Shown piece by piece: positions 4,546-52,623 of a stretch of DNA of 52,623 nucleotides. The notes beneath the pieces were generated by a model, which saw nothing but the letters and a program-made list of their open reading frames with translations, did not search any database and was not told the origin of the DNA. A program made the position numbers and the translations under genes. The first letter of the stretch is position 1, and each line of letters opens with the position of its first letter. Source of the DNA: an uncultured Eubacterium sp. (GTDB lineage: Bacteria; Bacillota; Clostridia; Lachnospirales; Lachnospiraceae); the NCBI GenBank assembly GCA_947642745.1, contig CANRTU010000033.1, positions 1-52,623 of the forward strand. Direction: 5' to 3'.

Positions 4546-4590
4546 AAAAAGCGTTTCGTCCGGCAGGCAGGCTGGGACGGGGCGCTTTTT
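4546..4590 (+). terminator. Intrinsic terminator after the 58-residue ORF
   Basis: AAAAAGCG-TTT-CGTCC pairs with GGACG-GG-CGCTTTTT around a short loop, ending in a U-tract. The U-tract continues into the left arm of the first hairpin of the structured repeat that follows. Confidence 0.7.
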
Positions 4591-4726
4591 ATTATCTTAT
4601 TAGGAAAGAGCGTTCTATAAGATAAAAACCCTCCGGGAGGATCGCCATGCGGCGGAAGGGAAAATGCTGCAGAGGCAGCCCGCCGCAGGCGGCGTATCCG
4701 GCTTTGCCGGATACTTTTTTATTATG
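4586..4726. repeat. Structured dispersed repeat (family R1), copy a
   Basis: The copy contains four stem-loops in series. (I) TTATCTTAT pairs with ATAAGATAA around a loop containing GGAAAGAGCG. (II) CCTCCGGGAGG. (III) A GCCCGCCGCAGGCGG hairpin. (IV) GTATCCGGC-TTT-GCCGGATAC followed by TTTTTT. The same order is seen near 41800, 50190 and 52335-52611. Hairpin I takes its left arm from the tail of the preceding terminator. Hairpin IV itself looks like an intrinsic terminator. Confidence 0.8.
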
Positions 4727-4778
4727 GGAGTGGGAAACCGCGCTTTATGCGTTTGTTCCGGAAGAACCGGCTTTTTGC

Positions 4779-4807
4779 TTTACACGGTTTTTGAAAATGT
4801 ATATAAT
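4779..4807 (+). promoter_or_regulatory. Promoter of the DUF3842-xylB operon
   Basis: TTTACA and TATAAT are separated by exactly 17 bases. Transcription would start near 4815, giving a leader of about 140 bases that contains both operator-like repeats. Confidence 0.65.
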
Positions 4808-4830
4808 ATTTGTTGTGTAAGCAGTAAGCG

Positions 4831-4930
4831 GGTATATCTGATCAGAATAAATCTGTACATGCCAGAAACAGGTATGGGCGAAGATGTGCTGAAATAAACA
4901 GGTATATCTGATCAGAAATAAATCTGTACA
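4831..4930. promoter_or_regulatory. Two operator-like direct repeats in the xylB operon leader
   Basis: GGTATATCTGATCAGAATAA followed by ATCTGTACA stands at 4831-4859 and recurs with one inserted A at 4901-4930, 70 bases (about 6.7 helical turns) apart. Each copy is centred on the palindrome TCTGATCAGA. Placement just downstream of a strong -10 fits repressor binding, with possible looping between sites. No regulator gene is adjacent, so the binding protein is unknown. Confidence 0.55.
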
Positions 4931-4955
4931 GGAAAATAGCAGGGGAGGGTCGTGG

Positions 4956-5360
4956 ATGAATATTCTGGTAATCGACGCACAGGGCGGCGGACTGGGCAGG
5001 CAGGTGATTACGGCGGTAAAAAAGGCGTTACCGGATATCGAAATTACAGCTGTTGGTACGAATGCGATTGCGTCTTCCAATATGTTAAAGGCAGGGGCGC
5101 ACAACGTGGCGACCGGGGAAAATGCGGTTATCACATGCAGCCGTAAGGCGGATTATATTATCGGGCCGGTGGGAATCGTAATTGCGGATTCCCTGTTTGG
5201 TGAAATTACGCCCCGGATGGCAGTGGCTGTTGGGCAAAGCAGTGCGGTCAGGCTGCTGATTCCCATGAACAGGTGTGACAATCTGATAACAGGGACCCGT
5301 GGCAGGACGGTGGAAGAAATGATTGAAGAACTGCTGGAATATCTGGCAAAAGGAGTATAA
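4956..5360 (+). CDS. DUF3842 family protein
   Basis: This 134-residue soluble protein begins MNILVIDAQGGGLGRQV, a glycine-rich loop after a beta strand that suggests a Rossmann-like nucleotide-binding fold. The body matches DUF3842 (AVGTNAIASSNMLKAGA, then ATGENAV, then GPVGIVIADSLFGEITP). The start has GGGGAGGG 7 bases before it. The gene ends one base before the xylulokinase start, and the two share a promoter and leader operators, which hints at a role tied to sugar phosphorylation. The biochemical function of the family is not known to me. Confidence 0.85.
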   Translation: MNILVIDAQGGGLGRQVITAVKKALPDIEITAVGTNAIASSNMLKAGAHNVATGENAVITCSRKADYIIGPVGIVIADSLFGEITPRMAVAVGQSSAVRLLIPMNRCDNLITGTRGRTVEEMIEELLEYLAKGV

Positions 5361-5361
5361 T

Positions 5362-6870
5362 ATGAGCTGTATACTTGGAATTGATTTAGGAACCTCCAGC
5401 GTCAAAGCCATGATTCTGGATGTGGAAACTGGGGAAGTCTGCGTGGAGTCCTGCGGCTACGGGGTGCAGATACCGGCGGCGGGGCAGGCACAGCAGGATC
5501 CCGGGCTGTGGTGGGAAAGTACGTGCGGCATACTGGCTGCGCTTTCCAGGAAATATCCGGCTACCTTTGACAATATCAGGGCAGTAGGGCTTTCAGGACA
5601 GATGCACGGGCTGGTGATGGCGGACGCACAGGGCAGGGTGACCCGTCCCGCAATTATCTGGCTGGATCAGCGTTCCGCAGCGGAATGCGAAACCATTCAG
5701 TCAGAAATGAAAAAGCATGACTGGGACAGGATGCTGCAAAACCAGGTTTTTCCTGGCTTTGCGCTTCCATCCCTGCTCTGGGTCAGAAACCGGGAACCTT
5801 CTATTTATAAACAAACGGACCGGATCATGCAGCCAAAAGATTATATCAGATACCGGCTGACTGGAGAGATGGGAACAGATGTGACAGACGCTTCTGCGTC
5901 ATTGATGTGCGATATTGGAAAACGGCAGTGGGCATATCCGGTTCTTGAGGCTTTGGGCATAGACAGCCGCATTCTGCCGGATTGTCACGAATCAATGGAA
6001 ATAGCAGGCGTTATCACTGACAGGGCTCATGAACAGACCGGCCTGAAAGCGGGGATTCCGGTTATTTTCGGTGCGGGCGACCAGCAGTGCCAGAGTGTGG
6101 GCAACGGTGTGATTACGCCGGGACAGGTTGTGTGCAATATCGGAACCGGCGGGCAGGTGTCGGTCTGTTCTGGGGAGAATTGTTATGACAGCAGGCTTAG
6201 AACCCATACATTCTGTCACTGTTTCGGACAGGCGTATACGGTATTTGGAGCGGTACTATGTGCGGGAGAGGCGCTGCAGTGGCTCAGGGACAGGGTGGTG
6301 CATGAGGAAAGCTTTGCCGCATTAAGTGAAAAAGCCGGGCAGATAACGCCGGGAAGCGGAGGGGCGCTGTTTTTACCTTATCTGGCCGGAGAGCGGACGC
6401 CTCATATGAATGACCGGGCCACGGGAATGTTTTTTGGGCTGAAACTGGCTCAGGATGAGCGGCATCTGGCCAGGGCTGTCATGGAAGGCGTGACGTTTGC
6501 GCTGAAAGACTCCCTTCTCCTGGTACGGGAAGTTGTCCGGGGAGAGGACAGCGGAGACGGGAAACTTCTGGAAGAAGGCGTTATGATTGCTTCCGGCGGC
6601 GCATGTGCCAGTCCGGTATGGCTGCAGATGCAGGCGGATATATTCAGACAGCAAGTCCGGGTAAGCAGGATCAGAGAGCAGGCCTGTCTGGGAGCGTGTA
6701 TTCTGGCAGGCGTGGGAACAGGCATACTGTCAGGGCTGGAACAGGCGTGCCGGACATACGTAGCGTATGAAGATAAAGTATATGATCCGGATGAGAAATA
6801 TACGGACTGTTATGAAAATATGTACAGGAAATTTCACGGATTGTATGAGAAGGTAAAAGAATTTTACTGA
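5362..6870 (+). CDS. xylB: Xylulokinase (FGGY family)
   Basis: The product phosphorylates D-xylulose (or a related ketose) with ATP to feed the pentose phosphate pathway. It has 502 residues, the full family length. The N-terminal FGGY domain opens MSCILGIDLGTSSVKAMILD (phosphate-binding loop) and holds GLSGQMHGLV. The C-terminal domain has VVCNIGTGGQVSV and ASGGACASPVWLQMQADIF. ATG at 5362 is chosen over an upstream in-frame start because AAAGGAG lies 7 bases before it. No xylose isomerase or transporter is in the window, so the true substrate could be another ketose. Confidence 0.85.
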   Translation: MSCILGIDLGTSSVKAMILDVETGEVCVESCGYGVQIPAAGQAQQDPGLWWESTCGILAALSRKYPATFDNIRAVGLSGQMHGLVMADAQGRVTRPAIIWLDQRSAAECETIQSEMKKHDWDRMLQNQVFPGFALPSLLWVRNREPSIYKQTDRIMQPKDYIRYRLTGEMGTDVTDASASLMCDIGKRQWAYPVLEALGIDSRILPDCHESMEIAGVITDRAHEQTGLKAGIPVIFGAGDQQCQSVGNGVITPGQVVCNIGTGGQVSVCSGENCYDSRLRTHTFCHCFGQAYTVFGAVLCAGEALQWLRDRVVHEESFAALSEKAGQITPGSGGALFLPYLAGERTPHMNDRATGMFFGLKLAQDERHLARAVMEGVTFALKDSLLLVREVVRGEDSGDGKLLEEGVMIASGGACASPVWLQMQADIFRQQVRVSRIREQACLGACILAGVGTGILSGLEQACRTYVAYEDKVYDPDEKYTDCYENMYRKFHGLYEKVKEFY

Positions 6871-6915
6871 TTCTGTGGACATTCTGAGTCCGGAATCCTG
6901 GGATCATACAATGTA

Positions 6916-7113
6916 CTATGATCCTGACGGTGGGATGTATTCCTGTTTCCCATGCTCTAAGTCGTGGAGAATGACACGCTTTAACCTTTCCTCTATGTTT
7001 TGGGTACTTGTAGCAGAAAAATGTACCCCGGCTAAATACCTTGTCTTATTAATAGTATGTTGTAAACAGGGCGTAATCCGCCCTGTGGCAGTGTTCTGAA
7101 TGTTGTCGTTCAT
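6916..7113 (-). CDS. TnpW-family transposon-encoded small protein
   Basis: This 65-residue protein has the core INKTRYLAGVHFSATSTQNI followed by EERLKRVIL. It matches the TnpW-type proteins carried by Tn4451-like and other conjugative elements of Clostridia (pattern V-FS-TS-E---KI-RLI). AAAGGAG stands 5 bases before ATG at 7113. No transposase, recombinase or mobilisation gene is nearby, so it is an orphan, probably left by an excised or decayed element. The role of the family is unknown. Confidence 0.65.
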   Translation of the reverse strand: MNDNIQNTATGRITPCLQHTINKTRYLAGVHFSATSTQNIEERLKRVILHDLEHGKQEYIPPSGS

Positions 7114-7130
7114 GCTACTCCTTTTGGGCG

Positions 7131-7172
7131 TAAAAAAAGACGCATGGTTTACAATTTACTGTTCCATGCGCC
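7131..7172 (-). terminator. Intrinsic terminator, minus strand
   Basis: On the minus strand CGCATGG and CCATGCG form the stem, followed by TCTTTTTTTA. It lies between the 29-residue ORF and the TnpW-like gene, and so separates them into two units. Confidence 0.65.
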
Positions 7173-7209
7173 TTTACGCTGTTTTACTGGTATTAAATTG
7201 TTCTGTTGA

Positions 7210-7299
7210 TTACGCCAGCTGCAGAACCCCGGCTTCAGGTTCGTTTAATTCTTCAAGTGATAATGACGGAACATAATCCGCAATTTCTTCCAGTGACAT
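7210..7299 (-). CDS. Very small ORF or gene fragment, 29 residues
   Basis: On the minus strand AAAGGAAAA precedes ATG at 7299. The product begins MSLEEIADYVPSLSLEELNE and ends GVLQLA. It resembles the helical tail found at the C-terminus of some transposase-like (Rpn/PD-(D/E)XK) proteins, but this is a weak resemblance. A terminator follows. It may be the last exon-like scrap of a decayed mobile-element gene. Confidence 0.3.
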   Translation of the reverse strand: MSLEEIADYVPSLSLEELNEPEAGVLQLA

Positions 7300-7352
7300 T
7301 TTTCCTTTCTTTATCATTGTTTATCATTCTTTCTGCGGTTTTCCTGTCTGCG

Positions 7353-7523
7353 TCATGCCTTTCGCTTCTGATAAATGATTTCAATGATATCATCTGTATC
7401 GCTTTCATAGATGACCTTTGCTTTTACTTTAATTTCAATATCCGCACCTTCAAAAAATTCTTTTGATAAATATATTTTATCGGGGTTTCGTCCTTTGTTT
7501 TGATTTCTAAAAATCTGTGACAC
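7353..7523 (-). CDS. Short ORF, probable fragment, 56 residues
   Basis: The minus-strand frame reads GRNPDKIYLSKEFFEGADIE, then KVKAKVIYESDTDDIIEIIY, and ends QKRKA. The amino-acid pattern looks genuine (alternating charged and beta-forming residues). The only start is GTG at 7523, about 16 bases from GGAAGGAG, so the true start is doubtful. A plausible promoter lies at 7560-7587. I do not recognise the family. Confidence 0.35.
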   Translation of the reverse strand: MSQIFRNQNKGRNPDKIYLSKEFFEGADIEIKVKAKVIYESDTDDIIEIIYQKRKA

Positions 7524-7559
7524 AAGTTACGATATATTTTCTACTCCTTCCGCACTTCA

Positions 7560-7587
7560 ATTATACAAAAAAGTCCCGTATTTACAA
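7560..7587 (-). promoter_or_regulatory. Promoter, minus strand
   Basis: TTGTAA and TATAAT are separated by 16 bases on the minus strand, with GGAAGGAG downstream. It would drive the short ORFs at 7353-7523 and 7210-7299. Confidence 0.5.
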
Positions 7588-7613
7588 TGAAATTTATATG
7601 AATTTTTCATATA

Positions 7614-8318
7614 CTATATTTCCTTGTCAACCGCCTGCAAATTTATCATGGTAACTATCTGGTTCTGCATATCCTCAACAGTTTCTATTCTGATTCTGCC
7701 TGTATTTTTTCTTGTCAATTCAAAATCTATGTCGGAAAATAATCTTTCACAAAAACAATTTGTTTCGGGAAACGCCCCCATTAAAGCTGTTACAAGCGTA
7801 TGAGTGTCAAACTGTCCTGACACTTCTTTCAGTTCCTTTTCAGAGATTGTTGAAATCTGTTCAAAATCCGTTATCTTCTGTGGCCGTATCTGCAACTTAG
7901 ACATGATATTTCCTGTAACAATCATCAACACGCCAATGATACCAAAAACAAGCTGACCAGTATCCAATGAAACAGATGATAAATTTTCAACTTTGTTAGA
8001 GCTTGTGTAAAGGGAATAGACATTCAGGGCATTAAACAATACCAGCGCTAAAATACCTGCAATGATGGTAACATTTTTATTGTTTTCCCCATGTTCTTCC
8101 TGCTTCATCGCCAATTTTGCCATTCCAGGCAGAAAATACCCCATTAAAAAACTTATTATTGGAAACAGCATAGCCTCATACTTGTTTCCCCAACGGTCAG
8201 CCTGACTGTCAAATCCGTAATGAGCAGGAATTTCTTCAGGAAGATATGGCAATGCAATCAAAACAATCACTAAAGGAAGATACATCAAAATATAATATAC
8301 TGTTTTCTTTGTTTTCAT
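7614..8318 (-). CDS. SdpI-like (DUF1648) membrane protein with a FliG_C-like tail
   Basis: This 234-residue protein is led by GGGGAGG. The N-terminal region (about 1-60) is DUF1648: membrane helix, then PEEIPAHYGFDSQADRWGNK and a second helix. Further helices lie near 80-100 and 120-140, ending GQLVFGIIGVLMIVTGNIMS. Where SdpI proteins normally continue (IGIRTPWTL...), this one switches to a soluble tail of about 85 residues: EKELKEVSGQFDTHTLVTAL, then GRIRIETVEDMQNQIVTMIN. The tail resembles the C-terminal domain of FliG. The 5' neighbour is a ruined SdpR-type repressor gene overlapping by 4 bases, the usual sdpR-sdpI order. It may be a chimera formed by deletion. Confidence 0.65.
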   Translation of the reverse strand: MKTKKTVYYILMYLPLVIVLIALPYLPEEIPAHYGFDSQADRWGNKYEAMLFPIISFLMGYFLPGMAKLAMKQEEHGENNKNVTIIAGILALVLFNALNVYSLYTSSNKVENLSSVSLDTGQLVFGIIGVLMIVTGNIMSKLQIRPQKITDFEQISTISEKELKEVSGQFDTHTLVTALMGAFPETNCFCERLFSDIDFELTRKNTGRIRIETVEDMQNQIVTMINLQAVDKEI

Positions 8319-8490: not shown

Positions 8491-8705
8491 TTGTATTTAT
8501 TAAGTATAAAATAAAGTATGAATTTGCATCTGCCAGAATGCGTTATACGAAATTTTTTCAGATACGATCCGAAGCGGCCTATACTGCGCCTTCAATTTCT
8601 GTCATGAAATGCCGGTGACCTTTCTTAAAGAAACGACTGTGTTGCAAACAGACGGTAGGGGATCTTAAACGTTTATGGGTACCGGTACCGATTTAACAAT
8701 AAAAA

Positions 8706-8734: not shown

Positions 8735-8773
8735 AAGCTGAAAAGAATTTTAAAAATAAGGAGGAAAAATATT

Positions 8774-11051: not shown

Positions 11052-11300
11052 GGCAGTTGCCTCTCTTTCTTCTGAACAATCTGATATTCCTGCTGGCGCC
11101 AGAACGTGTCCGAAATAAATGTTGCCAGAGACAGACTGCCGCAGCCGGATATTTTTTATATTATATAGGAAGTCTGCGGTATTTGTCCAGAATAAAAAAA
11201 TATGGAAAATTTTTTTATTTTTTTGCAAGGATTCAGAAAGCCGGATCGTATTATTTATATAAGAACAGTCATTCACAAGCATAATAAGGAGGTAATTCAG

Positions 11301-23655: not shown

Positions 23656-23882
23656 GAGCGTGTCTTAAAAATCATTCCTGTAATCCGCACTCTCCATTTT
23701 GCGGAGTATTCATCCCGTATTTAGCCATACAGCCTGTTATACCCAAAGGGTATGATGCAGCGTGCCACCTGGGTATGCCCCCGGATTTGTGATTTTCCAT
23801 ATTATGACCTTCAGGGTACAGACTGGGAGGCATATCATGCCCTTTGGGTACATTTTATGGAAAGCATTTTTCAGATACGCTC
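23656..23882. repeat. MITE-like element, copy A
   Basis: It starts GAGCGTGTCTTAAAAATCAT and ends with the inverse form (AAAGCATTTTTCAGATACGC, then TC), giving imperfect terminal inverted repeats of about 21 bases. The 227-base interior has no ORF but holds small palindromes around TACCCAAAGGGTATGAT. It shares the same layout with the two copies at 26.9-27.4 kb. It lies about 180 bases upstream of gerA; 23883-24060 holds no further feature that I can support. Confidence 0.7.
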
Positions 23883-24060
23883 TCGTGTTTCTGGAAAAAG
23901 ATATAGATCAATTCCCCAGCCGCTTCTGTTTTGAAAAGATGTGTGGTCTGAATGTATATTTATTCTGGAAATACGAATACTTGTATCGTAACCAGAAATG
24001 ACGTAATACTCACTCCGTTAGTGAGATACACGGAGATTGATAATAAAAGGAATCGTAGAG

Positions 24061-25632
24061 ATGGACAAAAATCAGACCAGACAGGCGCAGGTAAACCAGA
24101 TGGAAAAACTGACGACCAGCGAACAGGTGCATCCGGTATCCATGCATATTAGTGAAAATAAGCAGATACTTCAAAATATGCTTGGCAACAGTGCGGATAT
24201 TAAAATGCGGGAAATGGTACTGGGCAAAGAGCGGGTACGCTGCCTGGCGGCTTATATAGAGATTACAGCCGGTTCCCTGGCTTTTGAAAATTCGCTGATT
24301 GGCCGGCTGTTAAACGACCTGGCGGATCTGCCGGCGGAGCGGATATACGAATCCCTGGCATCCAATGGGCAGGGATTGTGTGATGTGACGCCTTTTGAAA
24401 ATGTGGAAGACGCCGTTCAGTACGGCATGTTAACCGGTGATGTGCTGTTGTTTATCGACGGATTTGCCAGTGCGTTAAAAATACCGGATAAAGGCTATCC
24501 GAACATGGGTGTTACGAAGCCGGAATCTGAAAAAGTAATCCGGGGCTCCCAGGAAGGATTCGCAGATTCTGTCAAAGTAAATACAGCGCTGATCCGCAAA
24601 AGAATCCGGTCCACGAAAGTAAGGGTGGAAGAAGTAAAGGCAGGACTATATTCCCATACGAATATTGATCTGGTATATATGGAAGGGCTGGTGTATCCGG
24701 GGCTTCTGGAAGAAATTAAAAAAAGGCTGGACGACTATACGATTGACGGGCTTATGGACAGCGGCATGATCGAACAGCTGACGGAAGAAACCTGGTATTC
24801 CCCATTTCCACAGTTTCAGTCTACGCAGCGGCCAGACCGGGCGGCGATGGCAGTACTGGAGGGCAGGGTAGTCCTGTTGTGTGATAATTCTCCTTCAGCG
24901 CTCATTCTGCCTACCGATTATAATTCTCTGTTAAAGACCAGTGATGATTATTTTAACCGGTTTGAAATCGCTTCACTGGAAAGGGTCATCCGGTATCTGG
25001 CTTCTTTTTTTGCGGTGGCATTTCCGGCGTTTTATCTGGCGGTAACAACGTTTCATACCCAGATACTGCCTACGTCCCTGTTGTTGTCCTTTGCTTCTGC
25101 CAGGCAGGGGGTGCCGTTTCCGGCTGTGGTGGAAGTACTGTTAATGGAATTTTCTTTTGAACTGCTGCGGGAGGCGGGTGTCCGTCTCCCGGGAGCCATG
25201 GGCAATACCATTGGCATTGTAGGCGGTCTTATTATTGGTCAGGCGGCGGTGGAAGCCAATCTGGTCAGTCCGATTGTGGTGATTGTGGTGGCGTTTACAG
25301 CGCTTAGTTCTTTTGCGGTGCCAAATGAAGAGCTGGCTACGGCGTTCCGGATTCTGAAGTTTTATATGATAGCCCTTTCTGCCTGGCTGGGACTGTTCGG
25401 TTTTCTTGTATCGGCGCTCAGCATACTGATTCATCTGGCTGGCCTCAGAAGCTTTGGAATTCCATATCTGATGCCGTTTGTAGGTGCGGAACTGAGCCAT
25501 TATCAGGATGAACGGGACAGCCTGATACGTTTTCCGCTGTCTATGATGCGTTACCGGCCGGTATATGCCAGGCGTCAGGAGAGGATGCGGCTGACATTCG
25601 GACAAAAAAAGAACAAAGGGAAGGAACGATAA
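24061..25632 (+). CDS. gerAA: Spore germination protein GerA family, A subunit
   Basis: This 523-residue inner-spore-membrane protein is the A subunit of a nutrient germinant receptor. The soluble N-terminal half holds VRCLAAYIEITAGSLAFENS, EDAVQYGMLTGDVLLFIDG and RGSQEGFADSVKVNTALIRK, the family core. The C-terminal half has about five membrane helices (LASFFAVAFPAFYLAVTTFH, IIGQAAVEANLVSPIVVIVV, FYMIALSAWLGLFGFLVSAL) and the FGIPYLMPF motif. Its end lies 2 bases from gerB. ATG at 24061 follows AAAGGA. Expression in the forespore is expected from the family, but I could not find a clear sigma-G promoter. Confidence 0.92.
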   Translation: MDKNQTRQAQVNQMEKLTTSEQVHPVSMHISENKQILQNMLGNSADIKMREMVLGKERVRCLAAYIEITAGSLAFENSLIGRLLNDLADLPAERIYESLASNGQGLCDVTPFENVEDAVQYGMLTGDVLLFIDGFASALKIPDKGYPNMGVTKPESEKVIRGSQEGFADSVKVNTALIRKRIRSTKVRVEEVKAGLYSHTNIDLVYMEGLVYPGLLEEIKKRLDDYTIDGLMDSGMIEQLTEETWYSPFPQFQSTQRPDRAAMAVLEGRVVLLCDNSPSALILPTDYNSLLKTSDDYFNRFEIASLERVIRYLASFFAVAFPAFYLAVTTFHTQILPTSLLLSFASARQGVPFPAVVEVLLMEFSFELLREAGVRLPGAMGNTIGIVGGLIIGQAAVEANLVSPIVVIVVAFTALSSFAVPNEELATAFRILKFYMIALSAWLGLFGFLVSALSILIHLAGLRSFGIPYLMPFVGAELSHYQDERDSLIRFPLSMMRYRPVYARRQERMRLTFGQKKNKGKER

Positions 25633-25634
25633 AA

Positions 25635-26837
25635 GTGTTTTCCAATAATGATAAAATATCACCCAGGCAGATAAAAAGACTGCTTATTTTTGATCTGTTC
25701 GGAGCCGGATCGCTGCTGCTTCCATCCAGACTGGCAGAGTCCGGAGGCGGTTCCGGGATGTGGAGTATATGTTTTGGATTAATTCTGGCGGTCTGTTACT
25801 TATGGATGCTGCAGATCTGCTGCGGCCGTATGAAACAGGATTATATGGCATATCTGCAGTCGGGCTGGGGAAGTCTGGCAGCCAGATTTATGTATATCTG
25901 CTATGGACTGGTCAGTCTGTTTGTGAGCGGCTGGGCGGCGAAGCTGCTGGCGGACCTGGTATGTAATGAGCTGCTGGACGACCGGGAGTTCCCGGTGGCC
26001 CTGCTTCTGATCCTGCTGCTGGCTTTGTATGGCGGTGCGGCAGGGCTTGAGTCCAGGGCCAGGATTTATGAAATTATGTACTGGGTACTGGCCGTGCCGT
26101 TTGTGATCATGCTGCTGCTCTGTGTCCGGCAGGTGCAGACGGTACGGTGGTTTCCGCTGCTCCCTGTAACTTCCGGGACTGGATGGTCCCAGGGTGGTAT
26201 TGTGTGGGGAAGTATTCAGTGCTTTGCCGTATTTCTGCCGCTGACATTTTTATTGTTTTTAAAATCCCATGAGCAGGATGAAAGCCGCACCGGCAGATCG
26301 GCGGTCAGTGCGCTGCTAATCAGCGGCGGTGCGGTGGCGGCGGTATATATGGTGCTGACTGGTATTTTTGGAAGCGGGGCGCTGGTCAGGGAAGCATATC
26401 CGGTCATTACACTTATGGGAATGGTGCGTATACCGGGGGATTTTGTGAAACGGCTGGATGCGGTTATGATCGGAGTATGGTTTTTTACGCTGTATGCGCT
26501 GATTGCGGCCACGCTGTATTACAGTGTGACCATTGCAATCCGGGCGCTGGCCGGCAAGGCTGCGCAGCCAGCGCCCGGCGGTTCCCGGGAAGCGGACAGG
26601 AGTGTACGGATCAGGAAATACTGGTTCTGGGGCATGACTGCGGCGGTATATGGGATTGCTTATGGGTTTCATCTGGAGCCCCGTATGGAGCAGCTGGCTT
26701 CAAAGGTTTTTTACATGGCAGGATTACCGTTTCTTGTGCTGGTACCATTGTTTTCAAATATGATCTGCAGGGTGCGCAGGAGAAAGCATAATCCTTCGGA
26801 TACCGGTCAGGGTGCGTCCCGGAATAACCAGCAGTAA
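25635..26837 (+). CDS. gerAB: Spore germination protein GerB family permease
   Basis: This 400-residue integral membrane protein of the APC-like superfamily has about ten helices and is the B (ligand-recognition) subunit of the germinant receptor. The start (ISPRQIKRLLIFDLFGAGSL then LPSRLAES) and the middle (YEIMYWVLAVPFVIMLLLCV) are typical of the family. GTG at 25635 is used, with AAGGAACG upstream. The gene is followed by a MITE-like array before the C subunit, so the receptor operon is interrupted here. Confidence 0.88.
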   Translation: MFSNNDKISPRQIKRLLIFDLFGAGSLLLPSRLAESGGGSGMWSICFGLILAVCYLWMLQICCGRMKQDYMAYLQSGWGSLAARFMYICYGLVSLFVSGWAAKLLADLVCNELLDDREFPVALLLILLLALYGGAAGLESRARIYEIMYWVLAVPFVIMLLLCVRQVQTVRWFPLLPVTSGTGWSQGGIVWGSIQCFAVFLPLTFLLFLKSHEQDESRTGRSAVSALLISGGAVAAVYMVLTGIFGSGALVREAYPVITLMGMVRIPGDFVKRLDAVMIGVWFFTLYALIAATLYYSVTIAIRALAGKAAQPAPGGSREADRSVRIRKYWFWGMTAAVYGIAYGFHLEPRMEQLASKVFYMAGLPFLVLVPLFSNMICRVRRRKHNPSDTGQGASRNNQQ

Positions 26838-26915
26838 AGAACCTGCTGTTTCGCTGATCTGAATTTCCAACAGCACATGCCGGAAATTTCCGGCACAGGA
26901 TCCGCTACGGATTTA

Positions 26916-27157
26916 GAGTGCGTCTGAAAAATCATTGTTGCCAGCTGCACACCCCACTTTGCGGTATATGCGGCCCTGCCGGTCAACGCAGCCTGCTATA
27001 TCATGCCCTTTTGGTACGCCTCCCTCATCTGGGTCAAATATCCCATATCATTCGGGATATATCATGCTCTAAAGTATCATATCCTTCAGGGTACAGTTTG
27101 TGACGCATATCATGCCCTTTGGGTACTTCTGACAGAAAGCATTTTTTAAATACGCTC
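26916..27157. repeat. MITE-like element, copy B
   Basis: It opens with GAGTGCGTCTGAAAAATCAT and closes AAGCATTTTTTAAATACGCT followed by C. It is about 242 bases. The interior repeats the motif ATCATGCCCTTTKGGTAC and its inverse. It abuts copy C through CCGG, giving CGCTCCGGAGCG at the joint. It sits between gerB and gerC. Confidence 0.75.
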
Positions 27158-27159
27158 CG

Positions 27160-27400
27160 GAGCGTGTCTGAAAAATCATTCCGGTGATCCGCAGATCCGC
27201 ACGCCCCATTTTGTGTAGAATTCATCCCGGATTTATGAGGCATGGCCCGCTACAGCGTGCCCCCGGGCAGGCCCCATAAATTTGGGATGAATATCTCCAT
27301 ATCATGCCCTTCAGGGTACTAAGTGTGAAGCATACCCTAAAGGGTATGATGTATCGTATTCTTTGGGTACATCCACAGAAAGCATTTTTTAAATACGCTC
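27160..27400. repeat. MITE-like element, copy C
   Basis: It starts GAGCGTGTCTGAAAAATCAT and ends AAGCATTTTTTAAATACGCT followed by C, 241 bases. The interior has CATCCCGGATTTATGAGGCA and TACCCTAAAGGGTATGATG. It is in tandem with copy B and followed, again after CGGAG, by the start of a third copy. Confidence 0.75.
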
Positions 27401-27402
27401 CG

Positions 27403-27550
27403 GAGCGTGTCTGAAAAATGTTTTCCGTGAGATGTACCCTGAAGGACATGATAGGGAGAATTTATTCCCCATTTGGGCGGCATACCCAGGGAGAACGCTG
27501 CAGGAGGCAGCCTGCCGCAGCCGTAATATGCGACAGAGCCGGATACTCTC
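27403..27550. repeat. MITE-like element, partial copy D, with an R1-like fragment
   Basis: Copy D begins GAGCGTGTCTGAAAAATG, keeps GATGTACCCTGAAGG, then loses similarity. It runs into GCTGCAGGAGGCAGCCTGCC and GCCGGATACTCTC, which look like the third and fourth hairpins of the R1 family in decayed form. It appears to be a junction of the two repeat families. Confidence 0.5.
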
Positions 27551-27632
27551 TGGATCATGGTAAATCAGGAGAAACGAAGGGTCAGAAAGAAAGGACTGTA
27601 AGGGTCAGAAAGATAAGACCGGAATGAAAGGC

Positions 27633-29329: not shown

Positions 29330-29833
29330 ATGACAGACAATCAGCTATTATATGCCATTTCAGAAATCGTTGAACAAAAAATAAAAGCAGAAACAGAACC
29401 GGTGAAAAATCAATTAAATAAGATTGAAAACGAAATGGGCCGGATGAAAGAACAGCTGGACAATCTGGAAATGAAGACAGACAGACTGGAAATGAAGGTA
29501 GACAGTCTGGAAACAAAAGTAAACAGCCTGGAAATAAAGGTAAATAGTCTGGAAACAAAAGTAGACAGTCTGGAACAACGGACAGGTAATCTGGAAGGTG
29601 AAATGGGATCGGTGAAGAAACAGCTGGAACAGGTGGATCACCGGTTGAAACGGGTGGAAATCAGTCTGGAAAGTGATGTGGTTCCACGTTTACAAACCAT
29701 TGAATCCTGTTACCTGGATACATATAAGCGTTATCAGTCCGGAATTGACCAGATTGATACCATGCAAAGAGATATTGACGTATTAAAAAAAGTGACGGAA
29801 GAGCATAGTGAGAAATTAAGAAAGATATCGTAA
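29330..29833 (+). CDS. Coiled-coil protein with heptad tandem repeats
   Basis: This 167-residue soluble protein has GGAGG before the ATG. Residues about 44-92 are seven near-identical heptads of the form LExKVxS (LEMKTDR, LEMKVDS, LETKVNS, LEIKVNS, LETKVDS, LEQRTGN, LEGEMGS), coded by 21-bp DNA repeats. The rest is also helical with heptad spacing. A long parallel coiled coil is expected. Similar short proteins are common in Lachnospiraceae with no assigned role. The near-identical DNA repeats suggest variable heptad number between strains. Confidence 0.75.
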   Translation: MTDNQLLYAISEIVEQKIKAETEPVKNQLNKIENEMGRMKEQLDNLEMKTDRLEMKVDSLETKVNSLEIKVNSLETKVDSLEQRTGNLEGEMGSVKKQLEQVDHRLKRVEISLESDVVPRLQTIESCYLDTYKRYQSGIDQIDTMQRDIDVLKKVTEEHSEKLRKIS

Positions 29834-40097: not shown

Positions 40098-40868
40098 GTG
40101 GCAGAAAAATTTAAAGAAGAAGCGGTCATTATACAACAGGAAGAGCTGGTAAAAAATGTATACAGCATGTGGCTTCACGCAGATAAAATTTCAGCGGCGG
40201 CAAAACCGGGGCAGTTTCTGGGACTGTACAGTTCCGACGGCAGCAGGCTGCTGCCAAGGCCCATCAGCATATGCGAAACAGATATGGCGGACCGGGCGGT
40301 ACGGATTGTCTACCGGATCGCAGGGAAAGGAACGGCGGAATTTTCCCATATGCGCACAGGAATGCCTTTAAATATTATCGGACCGCTGGGGAACGGTTTT
40401 CCACTGAAATCCCAAAAAGCGCTGGTGGTGGGAGGAGGAATCGGCATACCGCCGCTGCTGCAGCTGACGAAGGAGCTGGAATGCGAAAAGCAGGTAATTC
40501 TCGGATACCGGGACCGGGAGATGTTTTTGCTGCGGCAGTTTGAGGAGCTGGCTCCGGTACTGACTGCTACAGAAGACGGTTCGGCTGGTACGAAAGGAAA
40601 TGTACTGGATGTGCTGCGCAACACGCAGCCGGAGGGAGATGTGATATACGCCTGCGGTCCGCTTCCCATGCTAAGGGCGCTGAAAGCCTATGCGAAGGAG
40701 CGGGACATGGAATGTTATCTTTCACTGGAAGAGCATATGGCCTGCGGAGTCGGCGCCTGTCTGGGCTGTGTCTGCAAAACAGTGCACAGGGATGCCCATA
40801 CACATGTGCATAATACCAGGATCTGTACCGAAGGTCCGGTATTTCTGGCAGAGGAGGTGGATATCTGA
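40098..40868 (+). CDS. pyrK: Dihydroorotate dehydrogenase B, electron-transfer subunit
   Basis: This 256-residue protein passes electrons from dihydroorotate oxidation to NAD. It has a FAD-binding domain (GSRLLPRPISICE), an NAD-binding domain (ALVVGGGIGIPPLLQLTKEL and VIYACGPLPMLRALKAY) and a C-terminal [2Fe-2S] site (C-G-V-G-A-C-L-G-C followed by a further Cys at KTV side). The frame is open for 47 codons upstream, but GTG at 40098, 9 bases after AAAAGGAG, fits the family start AEKFKEEAVII. It is coupled to pyrD by a TGATG overlap. Confidence 0.93.
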   Translation: MAEKFKEEAVIIQQEELVKNVYSMWLHADKISAAAKPGQFLGLYSSDGSRLLPRPISICETDMADRAVRIVYRIAGKGTAEFSHMRTGMPLNIIGPLGNGFPLKSQKALVVGGGIGIPPLLQLTKELECEKQVILGYRDREMFLLRQFEELAPVLTATEDGSAGTKGNVLDVLRNTQPEGDVIYACGPLPMLRALKAYAKERDMECYLSLEEHMACGVGACLGCVCKTVHRDAHTHVHNTRICTEGPVFLAEEVDI

Positions 40869-41770
40869 TGAATACAAAAGTGACAATCGCAGGTGTTACC
40901 TTTCAAAATCCCGTGCTGACCGCATCCGGCACATTCGGCTCGGGTGAGGAGTATTCGCAGTTTGTGGATTTAAACTGTCTGGGCGGCGTAGTAACCAAAG
41001 GGGTGGCAAATGTGCCCTGGCAAGGAAACCCGGCGCCCCGGGTAGCGGAAGTCTACGGAGGGATGCTCAATGCCATCGGTCTGCAGAATCCCGGCATTGA
41101 CGTCTTTATCAAACGGGATCTGCCATTTCTAAAACAGTTTCAGACAAAGGTTATCGTAAATGTCTGCGGCAGATCGGAGTCTGACTATCTGGAAGTGGTG
41201 GAACGGTTAAACGACCAGCCGGTGGATATGCTGGAGATTAATATTTCCTGCCCGAATGTGAAAGAAGGGGGCATTGCTTTTGGCCAGGACCCGCAGATGG
41301 CAACCCATATTACAAAAGAAGTCCGCCGCCTGTCTGTGCATCCGGTGATTATGAAGCTGAGCCCTAATGTGACAGATATCGCCACAATGGCCAGGGCTGT
41401 GGAAGATGCGGGGGCGGATGCGGTATCACTGATTAATACACTGACCGGGATGAAAATCGACGTGCACCGCCGTACATTTGCGCTGGCTAATAAAACCGGG
41501 GGGCTGTCCGGTCCTGCCATACATCCGGTGGCGGTGCGCATGGTCTACGAAGTGGCGCAAGCCGTGAAAATTCCGGTGATCGGAATGGGCGGTATCATGA
41601 ATGGGGAAGACGCACTGGAGCTGATACTGGCAGGCGCTTCTGCGGTGTCAGTGGGAACTGCGAATTTTACAAATCCTACGGTTACCATGGATATTATAAA
41701 TGATATCCGTTATTTCATGATGGAAGAAGGCGTACGCAATATTAACGAACTGGTTGGCGCCGTGCGCTGA
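40868..41770 (+). CDS. pyrD: Dihydroorotate dehydrogenase B, catalytic subunit
   Basis: This 300-residue FMN enzyme converts dihydroorotate to orotate and works as a complex with PyrK. Family blocks are NPVLTASGTFGSGEEY, VTKGVANVPWQGNPAPRVAE, NAIGLQNPG, EINISCPNVKEGG (with the catalytic Cys of the B type), VIMKLSPNVTDI and VIGMGGIMNGEDALELILAG. It follows pyrK with a one-base overlap. pyrE, which often follows in related genomes, is not here; a structured repeat and an unrelated operon come next. Confidence 0.95.
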   Translation: MNTKVTIAGVTFQNPVLTASGTFGSGEEYSQFVDLNCLGGVVTKGVANVPWQGNPAPRVAEVYGGMLNAIGLQNPGIDVFIKRDLPFLKQFQTKVIVNVCGRSESDYLEVVERLNDQPVDMLEINISCPNVKEGGIAFGQDPQMATHITKEVRRLSVHPVIMKLSPNVTDIATMARAVEDAGADAVSLINTLTGMKIDVHRRTFALANKTGGLSGPAIHPVAVRMVYEVAQAVKIPVIGMGGIMNGEDALELILAGASAVSVGTANFTNPTVTMDIINDIRYFMMEEGVRNINELVGAVR

Positions 41771-41797
41771 ACGCTTTCCGGGCAGCTTCTTAATTAT

Positions 41798-41925
41798 ATA
41801 GGAAAAGAGCGTCTTATAAAGAAAGATCCTCCGGGAGGATCGCAGGGTTTTTATACTCCGTTCCGGCCGTTGCCAGGCAGCCCGCCGCAGGCGGAGTATC
41901 CGGCAGGGCCGGATACTTTATTACA
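41798..41925. repeat. Structured dispersed repeat (family R1), copy b
   Basis: This copy starts ATAGGAAAAGAGCGTCTTAT and has the CCTCCGGGAGG stem, then TACTCCGTTCCGG, then GGCAGCCCGCCGCAGGCGG and the hairpin GTATCCGGC-AGG-GCCGGATAC with TTTATT. It lies between pyrD and the 41935 gene and ends just before that gene's AGGAGG. Copy e near 52100 shares the TACTCCGTTCCGG variant, so the two form a subfamily. Confidence 0.75.
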
Positions 41926-41934: not shown

Positions 41935-42531
41935 ATGAGCAGACTTATTTATATCGCAGGGGATATTCCTTTCAGGGAAATCAGAAAGGAAAGCGGCGTT
42001 CATGGCCAGAGGACTATGACAGTGCGGGAAGCGCTGGATGAAGGAATTATAATTCCGGAATATCTGATGGAGCAGGACGACGGCTTACAGCTGCAGTTTA
42101 TAGTGGAAGAAGATCAGGGCAATTATACAGGTCCGGAGGGATTTTCGGTATATTCCATCGAAAAAACAGCGGATATACGTACAGACAGACGGTACTGCGC
42201 AGCGCTGGAATGGGATCTGTGCAGGCCAAAATGCGGGGAAGTGGTCATCCGTTATATAAAAGAACTGCTGGAACATACGCCGGAGGTGGAGATCTGGCAC
42301 ATCTGGATGGGCAGCGGGTATCCAGAGCCCCGGATACGGTCAGTTACACTGGACGCTGACAGTCTGTCCACGGAAGTATTAAAGCAGATAGATGAAGCCC
42401 GGGATCCGGCGGATCATATGTACAAAGGATATCTGCCTGACGACTGGGGTGTATCCGGAGAGGAGCTGGAGCAGGATACCTGGCGCCGTTATGTGATCAG
42501 GGCGGCGTGGGAGAGAAGTGATACTGTGTGA
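41935..42531 (+). CDS. Hypothetical protein upstream of a MoxR operon
   Basis: This 198-residue soluble acidic protein is of no family that I recognise. It begins MSRLIYIAGDIPFREIRKES and contains YSIEKTADIRTDRRYCAALE, VVIRYIKELLEHTPEVEIWH and IWMGSGYPEPRIRSVTLDAD. AGGAGG lies 5 bases before the ATG, immediately after the repeat element. The final GTGTGA overlaps the GTG start of the MoxR gene by 4 bases, so it is the first gene of a coupled operon. Confidence 0.75.
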   Translation: MSRLIYIAGDIPFREIRKESGVHGQRTMTVREALDEGIIIPEYLMEQDDGLQLQFIVEEDQGNYTGPEGFSVYSIEKTADIRTDRRYCAALEWDLCRPKCGEVVIRYIKELLEHTPEVEIWHIWMGSGYPEPRIRSVTLDADSLSTEVLKQIDEARDPADHMYKGYLPDDWGVSGEELEQDTWRRYVIRAAWERSDTV

Positions 42532-49193: not shown

Positions 49194-49296
49194 TACATGG
49201 ATCAAAAGAATCAGCAGGGAAACACGTTTTTTGCGGGTCGTTCTTGTATGGGACAGGATGTTGTACATATCCTGGTGTTTGTTTTATTTCTTAGAC

Positions 49297-49369
49297 AACT
49301 GGTAAAAATTGTATGGTAAAATTTTTATCCGGATGTGTTATGATAGTTCTGTACAAAATATTACCAGTT
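49297..49369. promoter_or_regulatory. Inverted repeat around the promoter of the Big2 protein gene
   Basis: AACTGGTAA at 49297-49305 and TTACCAGTT at 49361-49369 are exact inverses, 55 bases apart, flanking TATGAT (a likely -10). The right arm ends just before AAGGAGG. It could be a pair of operator half-sites or a leader hairpin. Confidence 0.4.
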
Positions 49370-49386
49370 TAAGGAGGAATATCAGA

Positions 49387-50067
49387 ATGAAAAATTATAA
49401 AAGAATTACATGCGGATGTCTGTCCGCCGCAGTTATGTTCACCGCACTGGCAGTTACGCCGGTAACCGCTCAGGCAGCCGCCATGAAGCTGAATAAAAGC
49501 TCCGCTACACTGACAGTAGGCAAAAAGCTGACACTCAAAGTCCAGAACGGGAAAAAGGGCGCTAAAGTAAAATGGTCCACCAGTCAGAAATCAGTAGCCA
49601 CTGTGACACAAAAGGGAGTGGTGACCGCAAAAGCTGAGGGAAAAGCAACGATTAAAGCTGTGGTAAATAAAGTGACTTTAAAGTGCAATGTGACTGTGAA
49701 TGATAAAGTGGTTAAAGATGAAAACGCTACGGATATAACTGCCGCACTGGCAGGAAAGACCTATAAAGGAACCGCTGAGATACCGGGGGTTGGCAACATG
49801 AATGTGATGAACCTTACCTTTGGGGAAGACGGCGCAGTTTCCGGGTCAATGCTGAGCGAAACAACATTTCAGCTGGAAGAATTTGCCGGTACGTATAAAG
49901 CCATGTTGTCAGGCAAAAAAGTGAATATCACTGTAACTGCAGACGGAGAGACATTTACTTATGGACTGACTGTGGAGAAGGAAGACTATTCCAGACTGTC
50001 CGCAAAACAGAAGGTGGGCGCACTGGAGATTACTGTTGTAATAGAAGAGGTGAAAGAAGAACAGTAA
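49387..50067 (+). CDS. Secreted protein with Big2 (Ig-like) domain
   Basis: This 226-residue exported protein has a signal peptide at residues 1-31 (basic KNYKRITCG, core AAVMFTALAVTPVTA, cleavage near AQA-AA). A bacterial Ig-like group 2 domain follows at about 32-110 (LNKSSATLTVGKKLTLKVQN, KVKWSTSQKSVATVTQKGVV, TAKAEGKATIKAVV). The last 110 residues form a second beta-rich domain (GTAEIPGVGNMNVMNLTFGE) that I do not recognise. No sorting signal is visible, so it is likely released or held by the wall. The start at 49387 has AAGGAGG upstream. Confidence 0.85.
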   Translation: MKNYKRITCGCLSAAVMFTALAVTPVTAQAAAMKLNKSSATLTVGKKLTLKVQNGKKGAKVKWSTSQKSVATVTQKGVVTAKAEGKATIKAVVNKVTLKCNVTVNDKVVKDENATDITAALAGKTYKGTAEIPGVGNMNVMNLTFGEDGAVSGSMLSETTFQLEEFAGTYKAMLSGKKVNITVTADGETFTYGLTVEKEDYSRLSAKQKVGALEITVVIEEVKEEQ

Positions 50068-50148
50068 GTCATCCGTTGTGGACATAAAAATAAAAAGCGT
50101 TTGTGTTCCGGATGCTTTGTGAAATAATATTCCGGCAGGTTAAACAGG

Positions 50149-50187
50149 AACCGGCAGAAAATGACGTTCATTTTCTGCCGGTTTTTT
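50149..50187 (+). terminator. Terminator of the Big2 protein gene
   Basis: AACCGGCAGAAAATGA pairs perfectly with TCATTTTCTGCCGGTT around CGT, followed by TTTT. The U-tract region (TTTTTTACTTTATAG) is also the left arm of hairpin I of the following repeat. Confidence 0.85.
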
Positions 50188-50316
50188 ACTTTATAGGAAA
50201 GAGCGTTCTATAAAGTAAACCCCTCCGGGAGGATCGCCATGCGCCGGAAGGGAAGATGCTGCCGGGGGCAGCCCGCCGCAGGCGGAGTATCCGGCAAAGC
50301 CGGATACTTTTTTCTT
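50184..50316. repeat. Structured dispersed repeat (family R1), copy c
   Basis: Hairpin I is TTTACTTTATAG with CTATAAAGTAAA around GAAAGAGCGTT. Compared with copy a, both arms have changed together (ACTTTA with TAAAGT versus ATCTTA with TAAGAT). Hairpins II, III (GCAGCCCGCCGCAGGCGG) and IV (GTATCCGGC-AAA-GCCGGATAC then TTTTTT) follow. Confidence 0.8.
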
Positions 50317-50372
50317 ATGGGAAAGAGCGTTCTATAAGATAAAACCCCTCCGGGAGGATCGCCATGCGCCGG
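50312..50372. repeat. Structured dispersed repeat (family R1), truncated copy d
   Basis: Hairpin I (TTTTCTTAT with ATAAGATAAAA around GAAAGAGCGTT) and hairpin II are present. The copy then stops at GCCATGCGCCGG, directly at the stop codon of the MATE gene. Its U-rich left arm is the tail of hairpin IV of copy c. Confidence 0.7.
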
Positions 50373-51729
50373 TCAGGCATTATCCGCAGGATCTTTCAGT
50401 CTGCGGTATACGGTCAGCCACATGGTTGTAAAACACGCCACCCCTCCGGCGAGATTGGATACCGGTTCGGCCAGAAATACGCCATTCACCCCAAGGCCCA
50501 GCATGGGAAGCAGCAGTGTCAGCGGCACCACAATGATGACTTTGCGAAATAGTGAAAAGAAGATGGAACGTTTTGCGTATCCCAGCGCCTGAAACGTACA
50601 CTGTCCGGTAAACTGGAAAGCCATAAAGCAAAAACCGGCAAAATAAATCTGCAGGGCTTCCCTGCCTGATTCTGCCATGGACAGGTCACTGGTAAAGACA
50701 GAAAACAGCAGATGGGGAAACTGTATAACAAGTCCCCAGGCAATCAGAGTATAGGTAATGCCGGTCAGGGCGGTAAAACGTATTCCTTCTTTCACACGGG
50801 ACATTTTCTGCGCACCGAAATTATAACCGATGACCGGCTGGGAGCCGCTGGCAATACCCATAACCGGGAGGGAGAGCAGTTCCCGTACGGAATTGAGGAC
50901 CGTCATAATGCCTACATACAGATCGCCGCCATAATTTTGTAAAGAGACATTACATACAATCTGTACCAGTGAATTGGTGGCCTGTACGATAAAGCCGGAA
51001 GCGCCAAGTCCCAGAATTTCAAAAACCAGTTTACGGTCTGGCATAAGACAGGTCTTTCTGATCCGCAGCAGACACCTGTTTCCGGTCAGAAAACGCAGAA
51101 CCCACAGTGCGGAGACGATCTGGCTGATAACGGTGGCAAGCGCAGCGCCCCGTACTCCCATATGCAGCGCAAATATGAAAACGGGGTCCAGAATCAGGTT
51201 TAGCAGGGCGCCAATCATAGTGGTCAGCATACTGACGCCGGGATATCCCTGGGCGCTGATAAAACCGTTCAGCCCTGTAGTCAGCATGGAAAACGTAGTA
51301 CCAGCCAGATAGATCCGCAGATATTCGTCCGCATAGACATTAAGAGGCGTCGCTGGCCCCGAACAGAAACAGCACCGGTCTTCGCAGCAGATAACACAGG
51401 ATCAGGAGCGCAAAAGAAGTGGCTGTGAGCAGGGAAAAGACGTTTCCAAGTATTTTTTCTGCCCGGGCTTCTTCCCGCCGTCCCCTGGCAATGGAAAATA
51501 AAGGGGTACCGCCGGTTCCATACAGGCTGGTAAACGCGGCAATGATTGTAATAACAGGAAAGGTCAGGCCGACGCCGGTCAGCGCCTCGTTGCCGGAGCC
51601 CGGCAGATGGCCGATATAAATGCGGTCAACAATATTGTATAAAAGCTGTACCAGCTGGGCCAGCGTAAGCGGAATAGCCTGACGGATAATATTGCGGGAT
51701 ACTTTTCCCTGTGAAAAATCTGTTGTCAT
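50373..51729 (-). pseudogene. MATE-family efflux transporter, frameshifted
   Basis: The two halves of a MATE multidrug/Na+ antiporter lie in different frames. The first (from ATG 51729, with AAAGGAG upstream) reads MTTDFSQGKVSRNIIRQAIP, then LTGVGLTFPVITIIAAFTSL, and ends LFGASDAS at a stop near 51342. The second resumes at once as YADEYLRIYLAGTTFSMLTT and continues to the normal end (SNLAGGVACFTTMWLTVYRR). One base lost or gained in GACGCCTCTTAATG (minus strand, about 51340-51355) explains it. Apart from that, the sequence looks well preserved (about 450 residues), so the event is recent or is a sequencing error. Confidence 0.75.
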
Positions 51730-52059
51730 TACAGCTCCTTTCCAAAAAGAGTGTCCGGGAATCAGTGTTGTGGCCGTTACCTGCAGTTTAGCCATAACCG
51801 GATGCCACAGATACAAAAAGTACCACGGGAAACAAAAGCTGCCATAGTACGTTGCCAGCTGTCTTTTGCAGACCGGATTTCCCAGCCGGATGTATGTAAG
51901 GATACGGACTTTACGGCGTGGCGCCGGGGCTCTGGCAAAACTGTGCCAAAAGTTATTTTAAAAGCATTAGAAGACTTGTAAAAAGATGCCACGTATGTTA
52001 CGATGAACTCCATCGGAGACTATGCAAAAGTTGTTCAGGCGGGCATTTACCTGGCTGTT
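51730..52059. other. Intergenic region upstream of the MATE gene
   Basis: An open frame at 51802-51981 (59 residues, ending GSGKTVPKVILKALEDL) has plausible composition but no ribosome binding site or known family, so I do not call it. No convincing promoter was found. Confidence 0.3.
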
Positions 52060-52623
52060 ATTTTTACTCTCCGGAGGATCGCTCTGGTTTATGTACTCCG
52101 TTCCGGTGGCTGTCTGGCATCTGCCCGGGATTAAGTGAAGCTGGAGATACAGCCGCAGCAGGCGGAGTATCCACAGAAGCCGGATGCTTTTAATCATATC
52201 ATACAGGAAATTGTGCCGCAATCCCCTGTATGAAATTCCTGCCGGGGAAGCAGACTGTGTGCCTGTGGAAGATGTCCGCCGGCGCAGAAACGCTCCGATG
52301 AGGCGTATCCGGCAAAGCCGGATGTTTTTCATCTTACAGGAAAGAGCGTCTTATCAGATGAAAGCCCTCCGGGCAGGATCACAGGGTCTGCCCCGGCAAA
52401 GCGGGGGCGCTGCGGCGAAGAAGAAGCTGCCGGAGGCATTCTGCCGCAGGCGTTGTATCCGGCTACACCGGATACTTTTTTATCATATAGGAAAGAGCGG
52501 CCTATAAGATAAAACCTTCCGGGAGGATCGCCATGCGGCGGAAGGGAAGATGCGGCCAGAGGCATCCCGCCGCAGGCGTTGTATCCGGCTACACCGGATA
52601 CTTTTTTATCATATAGGAAAGAG
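52060..52623. repeat. Tandem array of R1 structured repeats, copies e to h
   Basis: Copy e (about 52060-52200) is diverged and shares TACTCCGTTCCGG with copy b. A partial fourth hairpin (GCGTATCCGGC-AAA-GCCGGATG) lies near 52305. Copy f runs 52329-52484 and has a longer middle (GTCTGCCCCGGCAAAGCGGG), and its hairpin I has CATCTTACAGG against TATCAGATG. Copy g runs about 52470-52611, with hairpin I ATATAGG against CCTATAAG. Copy h begins at about 52600 and is cut by the end of the window. Each hairpin IV tail becomes the left arm of the next hairpin I. Confidence 0.75.

Follow-up and report, generated by a model that had tools for sequence, protein, structure and literature searches.

What kind of element is R1, the structured repeat that recurs along the 52,623 nucleotides (nt) of DNA from an uncultured Eubacterium species (the host) analysed here? 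This stretch, the window, is one entire contig (G000:C33) from a draft genome of 4.1 Mb and 111 contigs, and a preliminary description of it had offered three candidate explanations: a mobile palindromic element, a transcript-end module or a structured RNA. R1 is real and widespread and is best read as a mobile repeat that targets terminators; we assign a probability of roughly 80% to the fuller reading, in which a non-autonomous mobile DNA repeat, at home in Lachnospiraceae, inserts in the T-tract directly behind an intrinsic-terminator hairpin.

The R1 unit spans about 125 nt in the host and consists of hairpins I, II, III and IV in that order. Its orientation is one-way, running from the target T-tract through hairpins I, II and III to hairpin IV and a T-tract of its own. 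The left arm of hairpin I begins in the T-tract (TTTTATCTTATAGG, loop AAAGAGCGT, CCTATAAGATAAAA), so it does contain the U-tract of the upstream terminator, as had been proposed; the suggested competition between hairpin I and that U-tract is a possible consequence. Hairpin II is small (CCC-TCC-GGG), while hairpin III is GC-rich and across the family takes the form CTGCGGCGG ... CCGCCGCAG plus an inner stem. Hairpin IV is followed by a T-tract and scores as a terminator in a terminator scan, which bears out its description as terminator-like. The hairpin I loop, thought to be constant, is nearly so in this host alone (variants there include AAAGATCG) and differs in both sequence and length in other genomes. 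Some copies feature an additional hairpin, about 26 nt long, that separates II from III, modules are absent or exchanged in a number of copies, and in one whole-element fold the 3' arm of hairpin III is alternatively paired with GGCGG behind that hairpin. A coding frame behind the GGGAGG of some copies was considered and rejected, as the ATG is absent in many copies and tandem spacing is variable.

The covariance model R1 yielded at least 150 matches in the host genome, with all 150 scored candidates matching. An 18-nt hairpin I pattern with up to two mismatches gave 84 host-genome matches versus none for a backward control, which places the repeat family far beyond chance. Tandem copies are numerous, spaced mostly by 124–128 nt; of the 96 host copies that possess a T run, 41 follow another R1, and several host contigs, the window included, terminate in or next to R1 copies. 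Certain tandem neighbours are near-identical, thus indicating that local duplication does occur.

Evidence for mobility is provided by a genome assembled in one contig (G391), where four units of 135–138 nt are 96.4–99.3% identical and their adjoining 100-nt flanks are 43–55% identical, like shuffled sequence (50%). Both ends of all four units are TTTTTT in the same orientation, and the upstream flanks were read by eye as differing terminator hairpins. Empty sites provide the second line of evidence. At the host valS gene a truncated R1 lies directly after TTTTTTTA of the T-box terminator, and ten of twelve congener valS loci have no R1 unit, the T-box terminator being present there with a short leader; one of these ten (L329) has a short left-arm-like stretch after the T run but no hairpin, and at the remaining two (L327 and L338) the T-box was not shown. 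Within another genus, the valS T-box site holds a complete unit in G248 and none in G794, and G015 carries a related subfamily at this same site. Both ends of the unit are T-tracts and empty sites have a single T-tract, an arrangement equally compatible with duplication and with insertion next to a T run. At two further loci, that of dihydroorotate dehydrogenase and one in G391, the relatives compared for empty sites were too distant for the junctions to be read. Among the genomes of 12 congeners, ten had no R1 match and two had a single weak match each. Near-identical units at unrelated sites, empty sites and the ten congeners without a match all support the suggestion of a mobile palindromic element, and R1 combines the many dispersed structured copies and the mobility evidence that characterize a small structured interspersed repeat.

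The site of insertion was defined by the sequence before the T run. Among non-tandem copies, 44 of 55 in the host and 79 of 98 from other genomes have a hairpin with an energy below -8 directly before the T run, compared with 311 of 1500 other T runs of the same loci, a control that includes true terminators. These counts leave out copies behind another R1 (41 host, 3 other), those lacking a T run of 3 (4 host, 8 other) and those too near a locus end (1 host, 5 other). According to crude open reading frame (ORF) calls, 67 of 101 host copies have a same-strand gene upstream (opposite strand 19, no gene 8, inside an ORF 7), as do 67 of 114 others (19, 10 and 18, respectively). Known leaders, and one tRNA, were detected upstream of some copies: an Rfam scan of 17 loci among L102–L119 revealed T-boxes (L109 and L116), NiCo and cobalamin riboswitches (L114, L117) and a tRNA (L118), all within about 25 nt upstream of R1. 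T-boxes also precede R1 in L019, L150, L197 and L340, most of which were scanned on suspicion of a T-box, and a flavin mononucleotide (FMN) riboswitch ends about 150 nt upstream of R1 in L273. Hairpin IV is lost in both T-box copies that were found independently of the 3' half (L019, the host valS copy, and L340, in G391); complete copies behind T-boxes also exist, for example in L116. The idea of a transcript-end module therefore holds for the place of R1, behind terminators and with a terminator of its own, while any function for the host is putative. A related subfamily with a GCGC-rich hairpin III was observed at the same kind of site (L364; L174, 3446–3580; L134, 2345–2477), including the valS T-box terminator of G015.

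Within the window, R1 units and their parts were located as follows.

4546–4590, plus strand: terminator-like native hairpin with its T-tract, preceding the first R1 copy (from sequence; limits approximate).
4585–4720, plus strand: complete R1 unit, hairpins I–IV (R1 model 148 bits; R3 model 116.4 bits).
11061–11157, plus strand: possible decayed R1 remnant, weak (R1 model 17.7 bits, E 0.0013).
27458–27552, plus strand: decayed R1 remnant (R1 model 27.5 bits, E 2.1e-6).
41784–41922, plus strand: R1 unit with diverged hairpin III (86.7 bits).
50146–50186, plus strand: native intrinsic terminator; its T-tract begins the R1 unit that follows (terminator scan, 19 pairs).
50179–50313, plus strand: complete R1 unit, hairpins I–IV (161.8 bits).
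50185–50219, plus strand: hairpin I of this unit, T-tract and AT-rich arm, loop, complementary arm (from sequence and family covariation).
50221–50229, plus strand: hairpin II of this unit, weakly supported (two-sided changes in 2 of 3 pairs and 76.5% paired cells in the family alignment).
50239–50280, plus strand: hairpin III of this unit, a GC-rich two-part stem (paired cells 97.5% outer and 87.3% inner, 68 rows).
50286–50313, plus strand: hairpin IV and T-tract of this unit, its own terminator (terminator scan; 97.4% of cells paired).
50305–50372 (start approximate), plus strand: second tandem R1 unit, 3'-truncated inside hairpin III (from sequence).
52060–52194 (approximate), plus strand: decayed R1 unit, hairpin I missing (from sequence; repeat family D1).
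52189–52331, plus strand: degenerate R1 unit (41.3 bits, E 2.2e-10; R3 model 28.6 bits).
52322–52481, plus strand: complete R1 unit in which an additional hairpin (about 26 nt) follows II and precedes III (E 1.3e-27; from sequence).
52473–52607, plus strand: complete R1 unit (152 bits).
52600–52623, plus strand: first part of another R1 unit, interrupted where the contig ends (from sequence).

The count of seven copies with four hairpins each was partly confirmed: it is correct for the units starting at 4585, 50179, 52473 and 52322 (the last with its extra hairpin), holds with a diverged hairpin III at 41784, and fails for the copies placed at 50312 and 52060. The further copy near 52600 is indeed present, and the degenerate unit 52189–52331 and the decayed candidates 27458–27552 and 11061–11157 had been overlooked. 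Unit 52322–52481 appears in the genome-wide model listing and not among two later window model listings. Its extra hairpin, like that of other long copies, matches five places in the congener G012 and may therefore be a separate small repeat. Unit 41784–41922 lies between a dihydroorotate dehydrogenase gene (Pfam DHO_dh, 40868–41770) and a same-strand ORF at 41935–42531. The truncated unit ending at 50372 adjoins the stop codon of a minus-strand MatE ORF (Pfam MatE, 50373–51287); this ORF and the adjacent minus-strand ORF 51340–51729 both match MatE, and the gene looks split in two. The window also features a second short repeat family with a core near GGAGCGTGTCTGAAAAATCATT (11600, 23653, 26913, 27157 and 27400 on the plus strand, 40019 on the minus strand), TATCATGCCCTTTGGGTAC repeats at 23833–27372 near the GGAGCGTGTCTGAAAAATCATT-type repeats, and direct repeats at 2429–2839 (spacing of about 69 nt) and 29439–29596 (about 21 nt), which are probably intragenic.

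R1 is distributed patchily over the family: its model matches at least 174 of 397 Lachnospiraceae genomes and at least 150 of 334 genera (E ≤ 0.001), figures that represent a lower bound because 8 candidates were scored per genome. Blautia wexlerae, Anaerostipes butyraticus and Candidatus Pullilachnospira, the last of which belongs to Lachnospiraceae, are among the matches listed for the exact core. In a phylum sample searched with model R3, 2 of 398 genomes match, both of them Lachnospiraceae and none outside the family. In a class sample searched with model R2, in which hairpin I is out of register, 13 of 391 genomes match, 7 within the family and 6 outside it, the latter weakly, at 33–41 bits. 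Three of these six outside matches, from three other families of the class, feature palindrome I (a T run followed by a ATAGGAAA-type arm, the loop, its matching arm and an A run) with no recognized R1 core (L321, 1591; L322, 1503; L324, 1629), which suggests that palindrome I may be older and more widespread than the whole unit.

A mechanism is proposed where an enzyme acting in trans would move R1 to sites behind terminators, where little harm would be done. Hairpin I would take the target T run into its stem and would be needed for end recognition, such that copies with matched arms are the ones that spread. The terminator carried by R1 could keep transcription ended behind the unit and could also serve as a further target, giving rise to tandem arrays. 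A broader proposal is that R1 represents an undescribed class of mobile element, in which the mobilizing enzyme integrates at the intrinsic terminator (hairpin and T-tract), palindrome I absorbs the target T run, and riboswitch and T-box leaders, through insertions placed between their terminators and genes, are repeatedly rewired across Lachnospiraceae; we put this forward tentatively, as a possibility rather than the expected outcome. A mobile element that aims at terminators would offer a simple explanation of how small elements spread in dense genomes without gene breakage, and would be a clue to an integration apparatus able to recognize terminators as DNA. R1 may also switch or retune regulated genes, since its sites include those behind riboswitch and T-box terminators and the unit carries an additional terminator. 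Lachnospiraceae belong to the most common bacteria of the gut, and R1 can confuse the annotation of terminators, small RNAs and riboswitches.

Several observations weigh against a terminator-directed mobile repeat. Mobility is deduced here from copies and empty sites compared between, and not within, species, with no transposition event observed, and a target duplication cannot be told because both ends are T-tracts. The hairpin described above is missing before 11 of 55 host and 19 of 98 other copies, a T run of 3 is absent from the examined stretch of 4 host and 8 other copies, and 19 copies in each set lie behind a gene on the opposite strand by the crude ORF calls. Between close host copies, one-sided arm changes outnumber matched ones by 11:1 and 121:30. 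The exact R1 core, searched as one variant only, had 0 matches in viral contigs. No autonomous partner or mobilizing enzyme was found in a search that covered Y1_Tnp and the group II maturase domain GIIM: Y1_Tnp occurs in 24 of 45 genomes strongly matched by R1 (E ≤ 1e-20) and in 217 of 394 overall, the two genome samples differing by three genomes, and GIIM occurs in 19 of 40 R1-matched and 15 of 40 unmatched genomes, so neither is associated with R1. A divergent enzyme could have been missed, as each search used one Pfam model.

These enzyme counts bear directly on the alternative that R1 is moved by a known system, either an IS200/IS605-type (Y1, RAYT) transposase or a group IIC intron reverse transcriptase. 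In L027 a group II intron lies just downstream of R1 hairpin IV (approximately 1640–1878; Rfam group-II-D1D4-3 at 1708–1878), with a 5' end that we take to be GTGCG immediately behind the R1 T-tract. IS200/IS605-type elements lack terminal inverted repeats, carry hairpins close to their ends and use a T-rich target, a likeness to R1 that would favour such a transposase. For the intron enzyme, the choice of target is suggestive, since PMC4424553 describes insertion of group IIC introns at intrinsic terminators. The absence of any association with Y1_Tnp or GIIM, each searched with one Pfam model, led us to reject both RAYT/IS200 and the group II intron reverse transcriptase as the R1 mobilizer. 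G391 in particular has four near-identical copies, no GIIM match and no entry in the Y1_Tnp match list, and the host draft genome shows only a partial Y1_Tnp match (positions 2–30 of 121, with one stop, near a contig end). Mobilization by one of these known systems is therefore considered unlikely.

A second alternative is that R1 is a functional transcript-end RNA (a stability element, processing signal or small RNA) under selection for its fold, with its spread a by-product. The covariation that favours this explanation is strong. The changes named earlier in the hairpin I arms, which were said to occur together, are present, and an alignment-free test with a fixed loop, in which the arms are dealt anew as control, gave 611 Watson–Crick cells for 66 distinct host arm pairs versus 551.8 ± 9.3 (z 6.4, or 6.4 standard deviations) and 180 for 16 pairs from other genomes versus 146.3 ± 4.6 (z 7.4), with relatedness not removed in either set. 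Two alignments were also analysed. Alignment A1 was built from 54 non-redundant full-length host copies, of which 50 were kept and four odd ones omitted; these had been drawn from 101 pattern matches, 71 of them full-length. The 68 rows of alignment A3 comprise 64 from the best 82 of 114 matches in 100 loci and 4 host copies, with long or odd inserts omitted; many of the loci were fetched by an exact 23-nt core in hairpins III and IV, so variation there is underestimated. Cells changed on both sides number 55 in A1 versus 19.8 shuffled and 205 in A3 versus 42.2 shuffled, a control that does not remove relatedness, and the A3 covariation score is 0.223 versus 0.081 ± 0.003 shuffled and at most 0.061 with slid partners. 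Changes on both sides in A3 affect 14 of 17 pairs in hairpin I, 7 of 10 in IV, 8 of 14 in III and 2 of 3 in II, which places the strong covariation in hairpins I, III and IV and extends the coordinated arm changes to the family alignment.

Selection on a sense RNA should give G–U departures far above A–C. In host hairpin I the ratio of G–U to A–C is 58:39 (two-sided p 0.067) and in A1 stems it is 63:44 (I 27:22, II 8:1, III 18:14, IV 10:7), an excess that favours a functional RNA, as does the sense orientation of 67 of 86 copies with an upstream gene call (crude ORF calls) in the host and likewise elsewhere. The family set leans the other way: hairpin I gives 0:6 in the 16 non-host pairs, and A3 gives 13:43 for I, 0:5 for II, 5:4 for outer III, 13:15 for inner III and 8:7 for IV, with the A–C excess in hairpin I located partly at stem ends. 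Over all sets the two departures are near parity, unlike the 9 G–U and 0 A–C of a tRNA control (acceptor stems of just 15 tRNAs from the same loci, with the register set by Watson–Crick pairs), and the pairing is therefore not clear evidence for a functional RNA. Both strands also fold alike. Hairpins I, III and IV are all formed in 49 of 68 copies as sense RNA, 47 as antisense RNA, 50 as sense DNA and 55 as antisense DNA, and single-copy folds gave z -7.43 for antisense DNA versus z -4.26 for sense RNA. These results, together with the absence of R1 from most congeners, weaken the earlier notion of a structured RNA selected for its fold, and a functional transcript-end RNA appears improbable. 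We infer that pairing matters for the spread of copies and that settled copies would then decay without strong strand preference. Templating of the arms from each other in single events was rejected because one-sided changes dominate between close copies, and the arms are therefore not simply copied from each other. R1 illustrates that a functional RNA does not necessarily follow from strong covariation among repeat copies.

In a further alternative, judged very improbable, R1 would be a terminator cassette that recombination or gene conversion carries among similar 3' regions, with no dedicated mobile mechanism: near-identical tandem mates, local duplication and absent or exchanged modules would fit, but the four G391 units share nothing beyond their T-tract limits and empty sites hold the native terminator only, so homologous recombination via the flanks cannot explain these units and sites.

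The remaining question is how R1 as a terminator-targeting mobile repeat relates to described elements. In the part of the open-licence PMC literature covered, no description of R1 was found, and a term search of the main text of a survey of stem-loop families in bacterial genomes (PMC2267715) returned no word beginning with Lachno-. No Rfam family reaches threshold on R1, in agreement with the earlier suspicion that no described family matches: the window has 0 Rfam matches at gathering score, and in 5 loci scanned with E up to 1, R1 is overlapped solely by sub-gathering matches, while matches in further loci are neighbours of R1. Repetitive extragenic palindromic (REP) elements with RAYT transposases are extragenic palindromes near gene ends. 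R1 differs from these in its four hairpins in fixed order, its terminator target and its lack of association with Y1_Tnp. Group IIC introns share with R1 insertion at intrinsic terminators (PMC4424553). R1 is unlike these introns in its length of about 125 nt, in having no Rfam group II match in the scanned loci and in being present independently of maturase genes; on these results it lacks the group II ribozyme core and maturase that mark such introns.

Prokaryotic miniature inverted-repeat transposable elements (MITEs) are reviewed in PMC10969869, and R1 resembles them in being small, non-autonomous and multicopy with no coding capacity shown. The classical terminal inverted repeats at both ends are lacking in the G391 units, and the whole R1 unit has none, hairpin I alone being an inverted repeat; nor did the search of two enzyme families (Y1_Tnp and GIIM) reveal an insertion sequence related to R1. 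Close parallels by description, rather than sequence, are BOX, RUP and SPRITE of Streptococcus pneumoniae, which PMC3049150 presents as short, structured, modular interspersed repeats that are clustered and enriched behind genes, as R1 is. SPRITE is terminator-like, and insertion of BOX upstream of trp genes is discussed in relation to T-box control (PMC3049150). The same paper assigns terminal inverted repeats and target duplications to BOX and RUP (PMC3049150), whereas R1 lies in the T-tract behind a terminator hairpin, extends from T-tract to T-tract and has no inverted ends overall; R1 differs from all three in that its covarying arms include the target T run. In general kind, R1 belongs with the pneumococcal repeats and MITEs, with a sharper target and no inverted ends.

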